NCBI RefSeq assembly: GCF_030848565.1
Contig: NZ_JAVDDV010000017.1
Span: 1 to 64,000 of the forward strand
Length of the DNA stretch: 64,000 bases
From: Natronolimnohabitans sp. A-GB9
Lineage (GTDB): Archaea > Halobacteriota > Halobacteria > Halobacteriales > Natrialbaceae
Direction of reading: 5' to 3'
Part shown: positions 52,257 through 57,131 of the stretch, one piece after another
How the letters are laid out: every line of letters begins with the position of its first letter
Numbering within the stretch: the stretch's first letter is position 1
Program-made: the position numbers and the translations under genes
Notes under the pieces: model-generated
Seen by the model: only the letters and a program-made list of their open reading frames with translations
Database searches by the model: none
Told to the model about the DNA's origin: nothing

Positions 52257-53411
52257 TTACTCGGAGTCCGTCGCGTCGTCGGGTTCGGTCGTCGAGTCGA
52301 GTCGTTCGACGAGCGGCCGCTCTCGTGGGACGGCGATCGCTCGCTCGGACGGTGGTGATCGCAGTTGTGGTTTCGAGGGGCTCGCTTCCTGTCGGGTCTG
52401 CTCGTCGGTTCGGTCGCCGCGGACGCCACGAGGCGTCAGGTAGTCGCCGTCGATGTCGACGCCGGCTTCCTTACAGAGGCGTTTGAGCACTGATCGGGCG
52501 CCTTCGGTCGTGATCGCCGGCGGGGCGATCGCCCGTTCGCGGGCGAGTTCCGTCGCCGTCCGTGACTCGAGTAACTCCTCGACAGCCTCCTCGTCGTGGC
52601 CCCGTTCCCGGAGCGTCTCCCGGACTTGCCGGGCGATCGAAGGCGCATGGCGGGTCGGGAACAGCGGCCAGTCGTTGGCGGGCGGATCGAGCACGACACG
52701 ATACCGCCGCAGTGCCGTCCGGGCCGGCGCGAGCACGGCGACTTCCTCCAGGCGCTGGGACTTGCCGAGAACGCGGATCGTCCCCGTATAGAAGTCGACG
52801 TCGTCCCAGGTGGCACCGGTGCGCCGGTCGTCGTCAGGGACGCGGAACAGTTCCGACCCGCGCACGCCGGAGTGTGCGAGCAACGCTACCATGGCGTACT
52901 CCCGAAGTCGAGAGATCCGTTCGTCGCGGTCGTCGACCGACGCGGCCTCGAGAGCGCGAGTGCGGACGTAGTCCTCGAGTCGACGGCGTTGGTCGGTCGT
53001 CCAGTAGTCACCGTTCGACCGCTCCTCGGCAGTCGGCAGTGTGGCTTCGGCTGCATCGGTCGCTGCCGGATTCGACTCGAGAATGCCGCCGCGAACGCAC
53101 CACGAGAGAAACGCACGGACGACCGCGTAGTAGGTGCCAGCCGTGGAGGCAGTGTACTCGCCGCGGTCGGCCCGGGCGCGTAACTCGTCGGCGTAGGCCC
53201 GCATGTGCGCGACCTCGAGAGCGAACAGGGAGGAGACGCCGTGATCGCGCTCGAGCCAGTCAGCCCACCGTCGCAGGATCGATTCTGCGTTCGAGGCGTA
53301 CGTGCCCGCGCCCGTGCCGTCGGGATTGCCGACAGCCTTGCGTTGGAGGTAGGTATCGATCGCATCAACGACGGTAATCTCCCCGTTCGATCCCGCCTCG
53401 GAGTCACTCAC
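52257..53411 (-). CDS. Tyrosine recombinase-like protein with decayed catalytic C-terminus
   Basis: The 384-residue protein has an N-terminal SAM-like core-binding domain (VVDAIDTYLQRK, TAGTYYAVVRAFLSWCVRGG) and a catalytic domain with the first Arg (ALLAHSGVRGSELFRV) and the segment ITTEGARSVLKRLCKEAGVD shared with the recombinase at 57132. After GDYLTPRGVRGDRTDEQ it diverges: the HxxR box reads PRGVR, and the H/W and Tyr-nucleophile positions are missing, replaced by an Arg/Glu/Ser-rich tail. It is probably inactive as an integrase. The start is GTG 53411; no closer ATG precedes the first domain. Confidence 0.75.
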   Translation of the reverse strand: MSDSEAGSNGEITVVDAIDTYLQRKAVGNPDGTGAGTYASNAESILRRWADWLERDHGVSSLFALEVAHMRAYADELRARADRGEYTASTAGTYYAVVRAFLSWCVRGGILESNPAATDAAEATLPTAEERSNGDYWTTDQRRRLEDYVRTRALEAASVDDRDERISRLREYAMVALLAHSGVRGSELFRVPDDDRRTGATWDDVDFYTGTIRVLGKSQRLEEVAVLAPARTALRRYRVVLDPPANDWPLFPTRHAPSIARQVRETLRERGHDEEAVEELLESRTATELARERAIAPPAITTEGARSVLKRLCKEAGVDIDGDYLTPRGVRGDRTDEQTRQEASPSKPQLRSPPSERAIAVPRERPLVERLDSTTEPDDATDSE

Positions 53412-53700: not shown

Positions 53701-54534
53701 ATGCGTTACTCGACCTCACGGCGTTCGATGGTAGCCAGCGGTGCCGTCGTGGGTGTCTGTGGGCTCGCTGGCTGTCTTTCCGGCGATCGGGACGTCGAGC
53801 GGACGGTTACCGAGACTTACACCGCCGACGAACTGACCGCGATCGCCGTCGAGACGACTATCGGCGACGTCGCCGTCGAGACGGCTTCTGACGGCGGGAT
53901 CGACATCGAGGGCCAGAAGGCGGCGATCAGTCGGGACGACCTCGAGATGGTCGGACTCGAGGCGACCGTCGACGACGGCGTCCTCGAACTGTCGGTCGAC
54001 CACGACGAGTCACGGTCGCTGTTCGGTCTCCGACCCGATCCAGTCCTCGATCTGTCCGTCGCCGTTCCGGAGGAACTCTCCGTTGAGCGCGTCGAGTCGG
54101 GTTCAGGTGCGGTCGATGCGACCGACGTCGTCGGCGACCTAACCGTGATTACGGAGACCGGCGACGTCACGCTGGCCGCCGTCGACGGAACCGTCTCTGT
54201 CGCGAGCGAGACTGGAGCGATCACCGTCTCCGATCCCGCGTCGATCGATCGGCTAACGAACGAGTCTGGAGACGTCACGGCGTCGATTCCCGGTCTCGAC
54301 GGTGATGCGACGATCGAGACGACCACGGGTGCCGTCGAACTCCGACTGCCCGACCGACTCGATCTGACGCTCGACCTCACGACCGACACCGGTGAGATAA
54401 CGGTCTCCGACGTCGCGGACCTCCCGGAGATGGCAGGTGATTCGTTGATCGAGGCCGTCATCGGGGACGGAACGCATCGACTCGAGGTCACGACCGAACG
54501 CGGCGACGTGATGGTGACGGGACGAGAGCAGTGA
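53701..54534 (+). CDS. Tat-exported lipoprotein with DUF4097-like beta repeats
   Basis: The 277-residue protein begins with a twin-arginine signal and lipobox (SRRSMVASGAVVGVCGLAGC), so it is exported folded and lipid-anchored at Cys27 or so. The rest is a run of beta strands with repeated TGDVTLAAVDGTVSVASETG and SGDVTASIPGLDGDATIETT-TGAVEL units, the pattern of the DUF4097 right-handed beta-helix 'adhesin-like' family. The start ATG 53701 puts RR eight residues in. Role at the cell surface unknown. Confidence 0.82.
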   Translation: MRYSTSRRSMVASGAVVGVCGLAGCLSGDRDVERTVTETYTADELTAIAVETTIGDVAVETASDGGIDIEGQKAAISRDDLEMVGLEATVDDGVLELSVDHDESRSLFGLRPDPVLDLSVAVPEELSVERVESGSGAVDATDVVGDLTVITETGDVTLAAVDGTVSVASETGAITVSDPASIDRLTNESGDVTASIPGLDGDATIETTTGAVELRLPDRLDLTLDLTTDTGEITVSDVADLPEMAGDSLIEAVIGDGTHRLEVTTERGDVMVTGREQ

Positions 54535-54615
54535 TCCTTCTAAACGACACCGGGCTACTAGTGTAGTTCAGTGACGGTCAATGACATGGAGTTAACTGGT
54601 GATCCATCGATCGAG

Positions 54616-54636
54616 TATAGGGGAGGGGATTCGAAC
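54616..54636 (-). other. Sequence resembling a tRNA 3' end (possible attachment-site relic)
   Basis: On the minus strand it reads GTTCGAATCCCCTCCCCTAT, like a tRNA T-loop, 3' T-stem and acceptor strand. The matching 5' T-stem and the rest of a tRNA are absent. Tyrosine recombinases often leave such 3' fragments at one edge of an integrated element, and two recombinase genes lie nearby. The match is short and may be chance. Confidence 0.25.
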
Positions 54637-54648
54637 AGAAGCCAGTGA

Positions 54649-54765
54649 AGTGCCACGGGGGCAAGTTGCTCGAGAATCGAAGATTCTCGTGACCACGGAA
54701 ATCTCCGATTTCCGGACGACTCCGTGGCATTCGCCTTAACCGTCTGTAAGCGCCAGTGCTTACAG
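54649..54765. other. Multi-hairpin structured element
   Basis: Four perfect 8-bp helices lie in 117 bases: an outer pair TGCCACGG (54651-54658) / CCGTGGCA (54722-54729) encloses hairpins CGAGAATC-GAA-GATTCTCG (54671-54689) and CGGAAATC-TCC-GATTTCCG (54696-54714); a fourth, CTGTAAGC-N6-GCTTACAG (54744-54765), follows. The first three make a three-way junction. It could be a non-coding RNA or the folded end of an IS200/IS605-type element. The fourth covers the last stop codon of the disrupted hydrolase and may be its terminator. Confidence 0.6.
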
Positions 54766-55050
54766 CTGTCCGCTATTCGATCCTGACTTTGACGATTGCT
54801 TAGGAAGTGCCGATGCTAGGCGTTCCTCACCACCAACAACTGGAATCCGCACCGAGCTATCGTTGAGATTAACTGTAATCTCGACTCGAATTTCAGGTGG
54901 CTGGAACATTCCGTGGCCAGAGTCAGTCAATAAGAATGTGATCCCGGGTCGATTACCAGCTTCAAAGACCCGATCGGTCGCCTGAAGATTGAAGCCGACA
55001 TGGTACGGTCTGCCTGGTGAATTCAGGGCGAACGTCTCGCTGACCGATTT
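54760..55050 (-). pseudogene. Severed C-terminal part of the CocE-type hydrolase
   Basis: Directly after the TGA at 55051-55053 the same minus-strand frame stays open for 96 codons to a TAA at 54760-54762. It reads KSVSETFALNSPGRPYHVGF, NLQATDRVFEAGNRPGITFL and ends VRIPVVGGEERLASALPKQS..., which is the expected last part of the X-Pro dipeptidyl-peptidase C-terminal beta domain. In relatives the residue at the stop is usually Arg (PQNR-x-S), so a CGA to TGA change is likely. See the main entry. Confidence 0.7.
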
Positions 55051-56700
55051 TCAGTTTTGTGGGTTCATCCAGCCTCGGTTGACGATATCGGCCCCACCAG
55101 TTTCGTCGTATTCGACCAGTAGTGCTGTGACGTTCGCAGCTGGTTCGTCAAATGAAAGTGTTAGATCTGGGAAGACGCTTCCACTAACGCGGATGTCCTC
55201 TTCGAGTGGATCGGTCGTATAGACGAGTCGGTGTTCGGATTCGTCAGCATTGGCGTGGCTATTGATATGAATATCCGGGTTATCGACAAAACTCTCTTCG
55301 ACGGGCTGACCGTTGGATTTCTCGAGGACGAGTCCGCCTTGGGTTTGGCCACCAGGTGTAAAATTGACATCGACGTGTTCAGTTTCAGGATGGGGCCAAT
55401 CAGGTTCGGCTGTCAGTGAGCCATCCTCGCGCTCGATCGTAACTGGTGGCTCGTCCATAACACCGTTATCGACATTAAAGAGCCAGTAGGTGTACCAACG
55501 ATTGAGGAGGTCAAACCAGGCCTCTCGCTGGATCGGAACGTGATGACCTCCTTGGTGAAGCCATACGCGGTATGGCTTATTATGCTCTCTAAGCTCGTTT
55601 ACGAGTTTGGATGTGTTCGATGTTTCGACATTAAAGTCATAAATACCGTGGCAGACAAACACACCACAGTCGATATTCTCGACGTCTGGTAAGTAATTCC
55701 GTTCGTGCCACCAGTCGTTGTAATTTCCAGTGGTTCGGTCTTGGCCTTCCTCAACTCGTTCCCGTGCTGTGTCACAGACATGGCCGTTTTCTCGACTCAT
55801 GATGAAGTCGAAAAGTCCACCCATATCCATTCTCGACGCGACGTGGCCATTTGCCCGGTAGTAGTCGTACCAGTTCGAAATCGATACTATCGGGACGATC
55901 GCTTCGAGACCGCTAACACCTGTCGTCGCAACGCCATTAGCGAGTGTCCCATTGTATGAGACTCCCATAGCAGCGCATTTTCCAGTTGTCCAATCTGCGG
56001 TGACCTTTTGACCGCCTTCGCGACGATCGTACGCGTCCGCCCGCCCGTTCAGCCAGTCAACAACCGTTTTGATTCCTTCAATTTCGTTCTCTCCACCGAC
56101 GTCAGGACAGCCGGTGGACTGCTCGGTACCGATTGAAGCAGGGTACGCCCAGATGAACCCACGTTGTAGCAACTGCTCTTCGAAAGGTCCTGGCCCAATA
56201 TTTGGACCCTCTCGACCGGTGAATTCGGCTAAGTCGGAATAATCCTCGTAGACTTTCCGTGAACGCGCTTCTGCGCTTTCGTCGAGATCGCGGCCCGGTT
56301 TATCCGGGACATATAACTCTTCGCTCGGCGGATAGCCCCACGCTGCTTGATATTCCCCATAGTATGGGCTAGGCTCCATCACGACCGGGAGCCGTAGGTC
56401 GCTGGTTTCGGTTGATGCAGGCCGTGCGATTTCAACATGAACACGGTCTGGTTCGCCCGTCCCATCCGAATCTAATGACGTCTCGACCCAGTAATCTTCC
56501 CGAATTACTTCGTCGTCAGCGAAGACTGGCTGAGCGCGTCCATTTTCGAACCTCGGCTCAGCATTAGCCGCAACTGGGGTCGCAAATGTAGCAGCCGCGA
56601 CGCTCGTCACTGCCCCCGTTGTTGCTGCGGTTCGCAGAACCCGTCGTCGGGTGGTATTTTGACTTTGATCTTTCTCTTTTCCTGACTTTCTATTTAGCAT
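55051..56700 (-). CDS. CocE/NonD (X-Pro dipeptidyl-peptidase-like) hydrolase, Tat-exported, prematurely stopped
   Basis: The 549-residue open frame begins with a Tat signal (NTTRRRVLRTAATTGAVTSV ... ATPVAANA). The alpha/beta hydrolase domain has the nucleophile Ser248 in GVSYNG, an Asp in HGIYDFNVET and a His in HQGGHHV; an all-beta C-terminal domain follows. The family cleaves X-Pro peptides or acyl esters. The frame stops at TGA 55051-55053 inside the C-terminal domain, which continues in frame beyond it to 54760, so the full product would be about 646 residues. The gene is clearly more AT-rich than its neighbours, suggesting recent transfer. Start ATG 56700 (MLNRKSG); the frame to 56754 is longer. 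Confidence 0.8.
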   Translation of the reverse strand: MLNRKSGKEKDQSQNTTRRRVLRTAATTGAVTSVAAATFATPVAANAEPRFENGRAQPVFADDEVIREDYWVETSLDSDGTGEPDRVHVEIARPASTETSDLRLPVVMEPSPYYGEYQAAWGYPPSEELYVPDKPGRDLDESAEARSRKVYEDYSDLAEFTGREGPNIGPGPFEEQLLQRGFIWAYPASIGTEQSTGCPDVGGENEIEGIKTVVDWLNGRADAYDRREGGQKVTADWTTGKCAAMGVSYNGTLANGVATTGVSGLEAIVPIVSISNWYDYYRANGHVASRMDMGGLFDFIMSRENGHVCDTARERVEEGQDRTTGNYNDWWHERNYLPDVENIDCGVFVCHGIYDFNVETSNTSKLVNELREHNKPYRVWLHQGGHHVPIQREAWFDLLNRWYTYWLFNVDNGVMDEPPVTIEREDGSLTAEPDWPHPETEHVDVNFTPGGQTQGGLVLEKSNGQPVEESFVDNPDIHINSHANADESEHRLVYTTDPLEEDIRVSGSVFPDLTLSFDEPAANVTALLVEYDETGGADIVNRGWMNPQN

Positions 56701-57131
56701 TACATAATTATATACATGAAGATATATTTTAGTAGTAACTATATACCAATTCATTTATAAGTCATGGGAGTGATGACGAGATTGTCGCTGGCACGACTGA
56801 GCGTCAACTATAGTAACAACTGGAACTGTTTGTACACCGATCGCACGACCGCTATGCGATCGGGTACTCACTGGCGTTCAGTGACTACTATCGTCCGTGG
56901 GTGGTTTGTAGAATTTGAAATCCCGCACTTGTGCACGAACTCTCTGGGGACGAGCTCAGTTCGATATAGCTATATAAGATTTATACATGCAGCGGGAATT
57001 GCGATTCACGCTCTGTAGCGCCCAACGGGGCCGCAAGCAAACAGAACGGCCGAATAGATAATCCACTTTGGATTAGACGAGTAATCACAAGTGGCTTTAT
57101 TGTTCGAAACGCCGTACAGTCATCGCAAGCG
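56701..57131. other. AT-rich intergenic region between hydrolase and recombinase
   Basis: Around 56700-56760 the sequence is very AT-rich (ATTACATAATTATATACATG), with likely TATA elements for the hydrolase on the minus strand. A second AT-rich patch (TATAGCTATATAAGATTTAT, 56966-56985) lies before the recombinase gene. No gene seen. Confidence 0.45.

Follow-up and report, generated by a model that had tools for sequence, protein, structure and literature searches.

X-prolyl dipeptidyl-peptidase-like proteins (MEROPS S15; PRK05371/NF003780; PDB 6nff, 1lns) combine a Peptidase_S15 domain with a PepX_C domain, and both are shared by the gene described here, which lies in a stretch of 64,000 nucleotides from Natronolimnohabitans sp. 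A-GB9 (the window). The window gene departs from these proteins in ending at PepX_C position 137 of 217 and in carrying a Tat-type signal; its peptidase activity is a prediction. A literature search found no report on haloarchaeal X-prolyl dipeptidyl peptidases.

The gene is interrupted by an in-frame TGA. Stop-codon read-through in archaea has been demonstrated only for selenocysteine and pyrrolysine, according to a review (PMC8211752). Relatives alone make it possible to tell apart sequencing error, read-through and truncation at an in-frame stop of a draft genome, once the evolutionary rate on the affected branch is compared between the parts preceding and following that stop. For the window gene, this comparison points to a probable lineage-specific nonsense mutation, in which TGA acts as a true stop, the product is 549 amino acids long and the tail is drifting. 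Biologically this would be an ordinary case, in which a single haloarchaeal lineage sheds the C-terminal end of a single-copy accessory peptidase gene.

The interrupted gene and its family

The window genome is a 4.3 Mb draft in 72 contigs and contains a single copy of the PepX-like gene, on the minus strand. Its open part (55054-56700, 549 codons) likely starts at the ATG at 56700-56698, with a further in-frame ATG at 56754, and encodes a twin-arginine (Tat-type) signal with the motif TTRRRVLRTAA, followed by Peptidase_S15 and the first part of PepX_C. Re-reading of the frame reproduced exactly the coordinates given in the original prediction, i.e. the TGA at 55051-55053, 96 same-frame codons behind it (54763-55050, minus strand) and a closing TAA (54760-54762, minus strand), which lies ~14 codons beyond the usual end of the orthologs. 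The TGA is the sole lesion across 646 codons.

In profile searches, the front of the gene matches Peptidase_S15 (PF02129) with 172 bits against a cut-off of 23. PepX_C (PF08530) is found before the TGA with 78.6 bits but covers only profile positions 1-137 of 217, while an intact ortholog covers 1-195; the domain is therefore incomplete in the translated product. The best curated family for both pieces of the gene is the X-prolyl dipeptidyl-peptidase subfamily NF003780, of which the piece upstream of the TGA covers positions 11-513 and the tail the directly adjoining positions 516-591. Its curated cut-off of 642 bits is reached by neither the truncated protein (541 bits) nor the tail (45 bits). 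The tail on its own nevertheless yields an E-value of 6.7e-12, in agreement with the earlier claim that the frame beyond the TGA continues with C-terminal-domain sequence.

The Ser-Asp-His columns of the hydrolase, S274, D381 and H412, show no variation across 24 aligned sequences, the window gene among them, and presumably hold the catalytic residues of the family. The gene had first been labelled CocE-type, which holds at the level of the CocE superfamily, but profile and structure matches place it closer to the PepX-like proteins of the PRK05371 group. With cocaine esterase and the CocE-NonD family it shares superfamily and domain order; the matches are weaker, however, with ~17% identity across the structural alignment, and the PepX group is the better fit.

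Relatives and the codon at the stop

Searches across the family and order retrieved 17 distinct full-length orthologs and paralogs, seven of them close (64-77% identical; those with a genus name come from Natrialba and Natronococcus) and ten more distant. All 17 are intact at the position of the TGA and carry a sense codon there. As originally predicted, arginine is the usual residue, present in 13 of the 17 and in all seven close orthologs. The distant clade has Tyr, Ala or Phe instead, and the position is therefore not catalytic. A change from CGA to TGA had been proposed, and CGA is indeed one step away from TGA. It is not the sole candidate, however, because AGA is likewise one step away and CGA is absent from the close relatives, which use CGG, CGC or AGA; CGA is confined to a clade of ~50% identity. 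The relatives thus leave both CGA and AGA as possible ancestral codons.

The tail aligns without indels as far as residue 650 with the orthologs of Natrialba, Natronococcus and one further genome (G180). When 391 genomes of the class were searched, tail matches lay within a longer intact frame, except for broken remnants in G092 and in a second copy in G089. The tail is therefore no chance open frame, since it matches the family profile, aligns with its relatives and is embedded in their intact frames. The remnant in G092 (L017:1254-1677, minus strand) is a frameshifted C-terminal piece, whose frame disturbance adjoins the position of the window TGA and which contains a TAG further on. The second copy in G089 (L120; G089:C1:3262300-3263400) has suffered an internal deletion that fuses the N-terminus (residues 66-88) to the tail (577 onward). 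Because of these decayed copies, loss of the PepX-like accessory gene is, judging from the genomes compared, a recurrent and ordinary event. The PepX-like gene was not found in G098, the one other genome of the genus, and the search for a sister strain of the window organism returned none. The viral contigs searched contained no close relatives of the gene, and the plasmid records searched nothing beyond distant bacterial homologs with <37% identity.

Predicted structural consequences of the stop

The structure of the intact ortholog L103 was predicted from the alignment of 24 sequences (mean pLDDT 78.7, pTM 0.80, domains mostly >90). The best matches of the model are the X-prolyl dipeptidyl aminopeptidases 6nff and 1lns, followed by cocaine esterases. 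Ten β-strands of the C-terminal domain precede the stop position, while five strands and the C-terminal helix lie behind it. The truncated C-terminal domain would probably be less stable.

Genomic setting

The gene and its flanks (54500-57000) have a GC content of ~52%, against 59-68% (about 63%) in the surrounding DNA. This low-GC patch suggests acquired DNA. The PepX-like gene sits between two integrase-like genes. In one of these (52257-53411, minus strand), unrelated sequence takes the place of the C-terminal region expected to carry the last catalytic residues of a tyrosine recombinase; the match of its protein to Phage_integrase stays below the cut-off and is limited to profile positions 20-118 of 172. 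A frameshift in this gene was ruled out, because the unusual C-terminus is kept in G098 (L094), with 76% identity over the whole protein; the product may be related to recombinases but serve a different function.

Two repeated sequences flank the PepX-like gene. Short palindromes occur in the 100 bases just behind the TAA (54643-54742), which recur in part at C1:360283 and at C39:7657; a TnpB-like frame (L038) lies close to the C39 copy, and the 100-base stretch possibly represents the end of an IS200/IS605-type element. Upstream of the gene, a repeat of ~85 bases (56805-56891) recurs ~38 more times in the genome, in full or in part, with 73-93% identity; the copies often match both strands at one place, i.e. 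the repeat is partly palindromic.

Evolutionary rate before and after the stop

If the TGA were a base error or were efficiently read through, tail and front should evolve alike on the window branch. The rates were compared in eight sequences on a fixed topology, using 501 columns before and 80 columns after the stop. The ratio of the window branch to the rest of the tree rose from 0.145 in the front to 0.459 in the tail, a 3.2-fold difference in a result that covers one lineage and 80 tail columns. Neither the 100 resamples, each of 80 front columns, nor the 43 contiguous front blocks included one that equalled the ratio of the tail, and the tail-to-front fold was <=1.2 on all other terminal branches. 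Allowing an extra tail multiplier on the window branch gave a likelihood ratio of 11.5 (p ~7e-4), with a best multiplier of 3. Omitting L008, L103 or the last 12 columns does not abolish the acceleration, nor does comparing the tail with the remaining PepX_C domain alone; adding the distant clade lowers it to 2.1-fold, a value reached by 2 of 60 resamples. The front is not in excess, with 0.153 for the window branch compared to 0.135 for the nearest ortholog.

Of the sites that do not vary among the seven orthologs, 49 lie in the tail and 285 in the front; the window gene has changed 8 of the former and 11 of the latter (Fisher p 0.0026). The original prediction had named random changes gathered in the downstream frame as evidence against it, and such changes are partly borne out: the tail is about threefold faster and has lost invariant sites, but its frame is open, free of additional stops and indels, and identity to the orthologs is still ~75-90% at first and second codon positions. 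Such an open and still similar tail would fit either a young stop or a tail that is still partly used. In a simple simulation, ~25 neutral substitutions produced ~16 amino-acid changes, and the frame stayed stop-free in 40% of the runs; the open tail therefore does not prove translation. Third-position identity to L103 is 41% both before and after the stop, and the tail is therefore unlikely to be of different origin.

Truncation and its alternatives

In the proposed sequence of events, a nonsense substitution would have converted an Arg codon to TGA in this lineage alone, in the sole copy of a gene for a Tat-exported, PepX-like serine peptidase. Translation would end at the TGA and yield a 549-amino acid protein whose C-terminal β-sandwich domain lacks the final third, while the 96 codons beyond would be freed from protein selection and would have begun to drift. 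The relaxed constraint on the tail, together with the lack of a UCA-anticodon tRNA or a tRNA-Sec above cut-off (see below), makes TGA most likely a true stop. We infer that this stop is genuine in the cell's DNA and is not read through. As the front, unlike the tail, shows no drift, the truncated form may still serve the cell, or the tail may have been lost fairly recently. Continued use of the truncated product is favoured by this difference, with recent loss of the whole gene as a possible reading of data from one lineage and 80 columns.

A dead pseudogene is a special case of truncation, with a likelihood that overlaps with that of truncation, and by itself a plausible though distinctly less probable outcome; error and read-through, considered below, have no such overlap. 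Here, the whole gene would recently have become useless, with the TGA as the first visible lesion and the product unused. The truncated β-sandwich would probably misfold and fail Tat export, the gene lies in a low-GC patch between two integrase-like genes, and two other genomes contain decayed copies of the same family. Had the whole gene been freed for as long as the tail, however, a similar excess would be expected in the front, and none was found. The pseudogene suggested in the original prediction is thus borne out insofar as the gene is disrupted in the window genome and intact in relatives, but relaxed selection is confined to the tail and does not extend to the front.

Divergence of the tail through adaptation or recombination ahead of a very recent stop, in which case the speed of the tail would provide no date for the stop, is unlikely. 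The small number of columns (80) and a C-terminal end that exceeds that of most orthologs by 14 codons are compatible with such prior divergence, but the equal third-position identity on both sides of the stop speaks against it. A sequencing or assembly error in a gene that is really intact is decidedly improbable. A single base would account for the stop in a draft of 72 contigs and in a frame otherwise free of lesions, but an error, which was one of the options considered originally, would not speed up the tail alone ~3-fold on the window branch and leaves the tail-only relaxation of constraint unaccounted for.

Read-through or recoding that yields some full-length enzyme, the remaining original option, is highly improbable despite an open, in-frame and recognizable tail, because the constraint on this tail is reduced, the stop occurs in one genome only and is a sense codon in all 17 relatives, the affected Arg position is not catalytic and varies in the distant clade, and the archaeal cases that the review gives as demonstrated are restricted to the two amino acids named above. 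In addition, UCA is not among the anticodons of the 44 tRNA genes listed for the window genome (a list that may miss a few intron-bearing tRNAs), and a search of this genome for tRNA-Sec gave nothing above the cut-off. The faintest chance of all is given to low-level UGA read-through by a normal tRNA, which would yield small amounts of the full-length peptidase in addition to a functional truncated form and leave selection on the tail weakened but non-zero.

Comparison with known recoded and truncated genes

With archaeal recoding, i.e. selenocysteine at UGA and pyrrolysine at UAG, the window gene shares the presence of an in-frame stop within a conserved reading frame. It differs in that no dedicated tRNA was found for it, the stop is not conserved and the constraint on the tail has been lost. 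With nonsense-truncated prokaryotic genes and pseudogenes, it shares a lone premature stop, an in-frame remnant and relaxed constraint behind the stop; what sets it apart from them is that its part before the stop is still unrelaxed.
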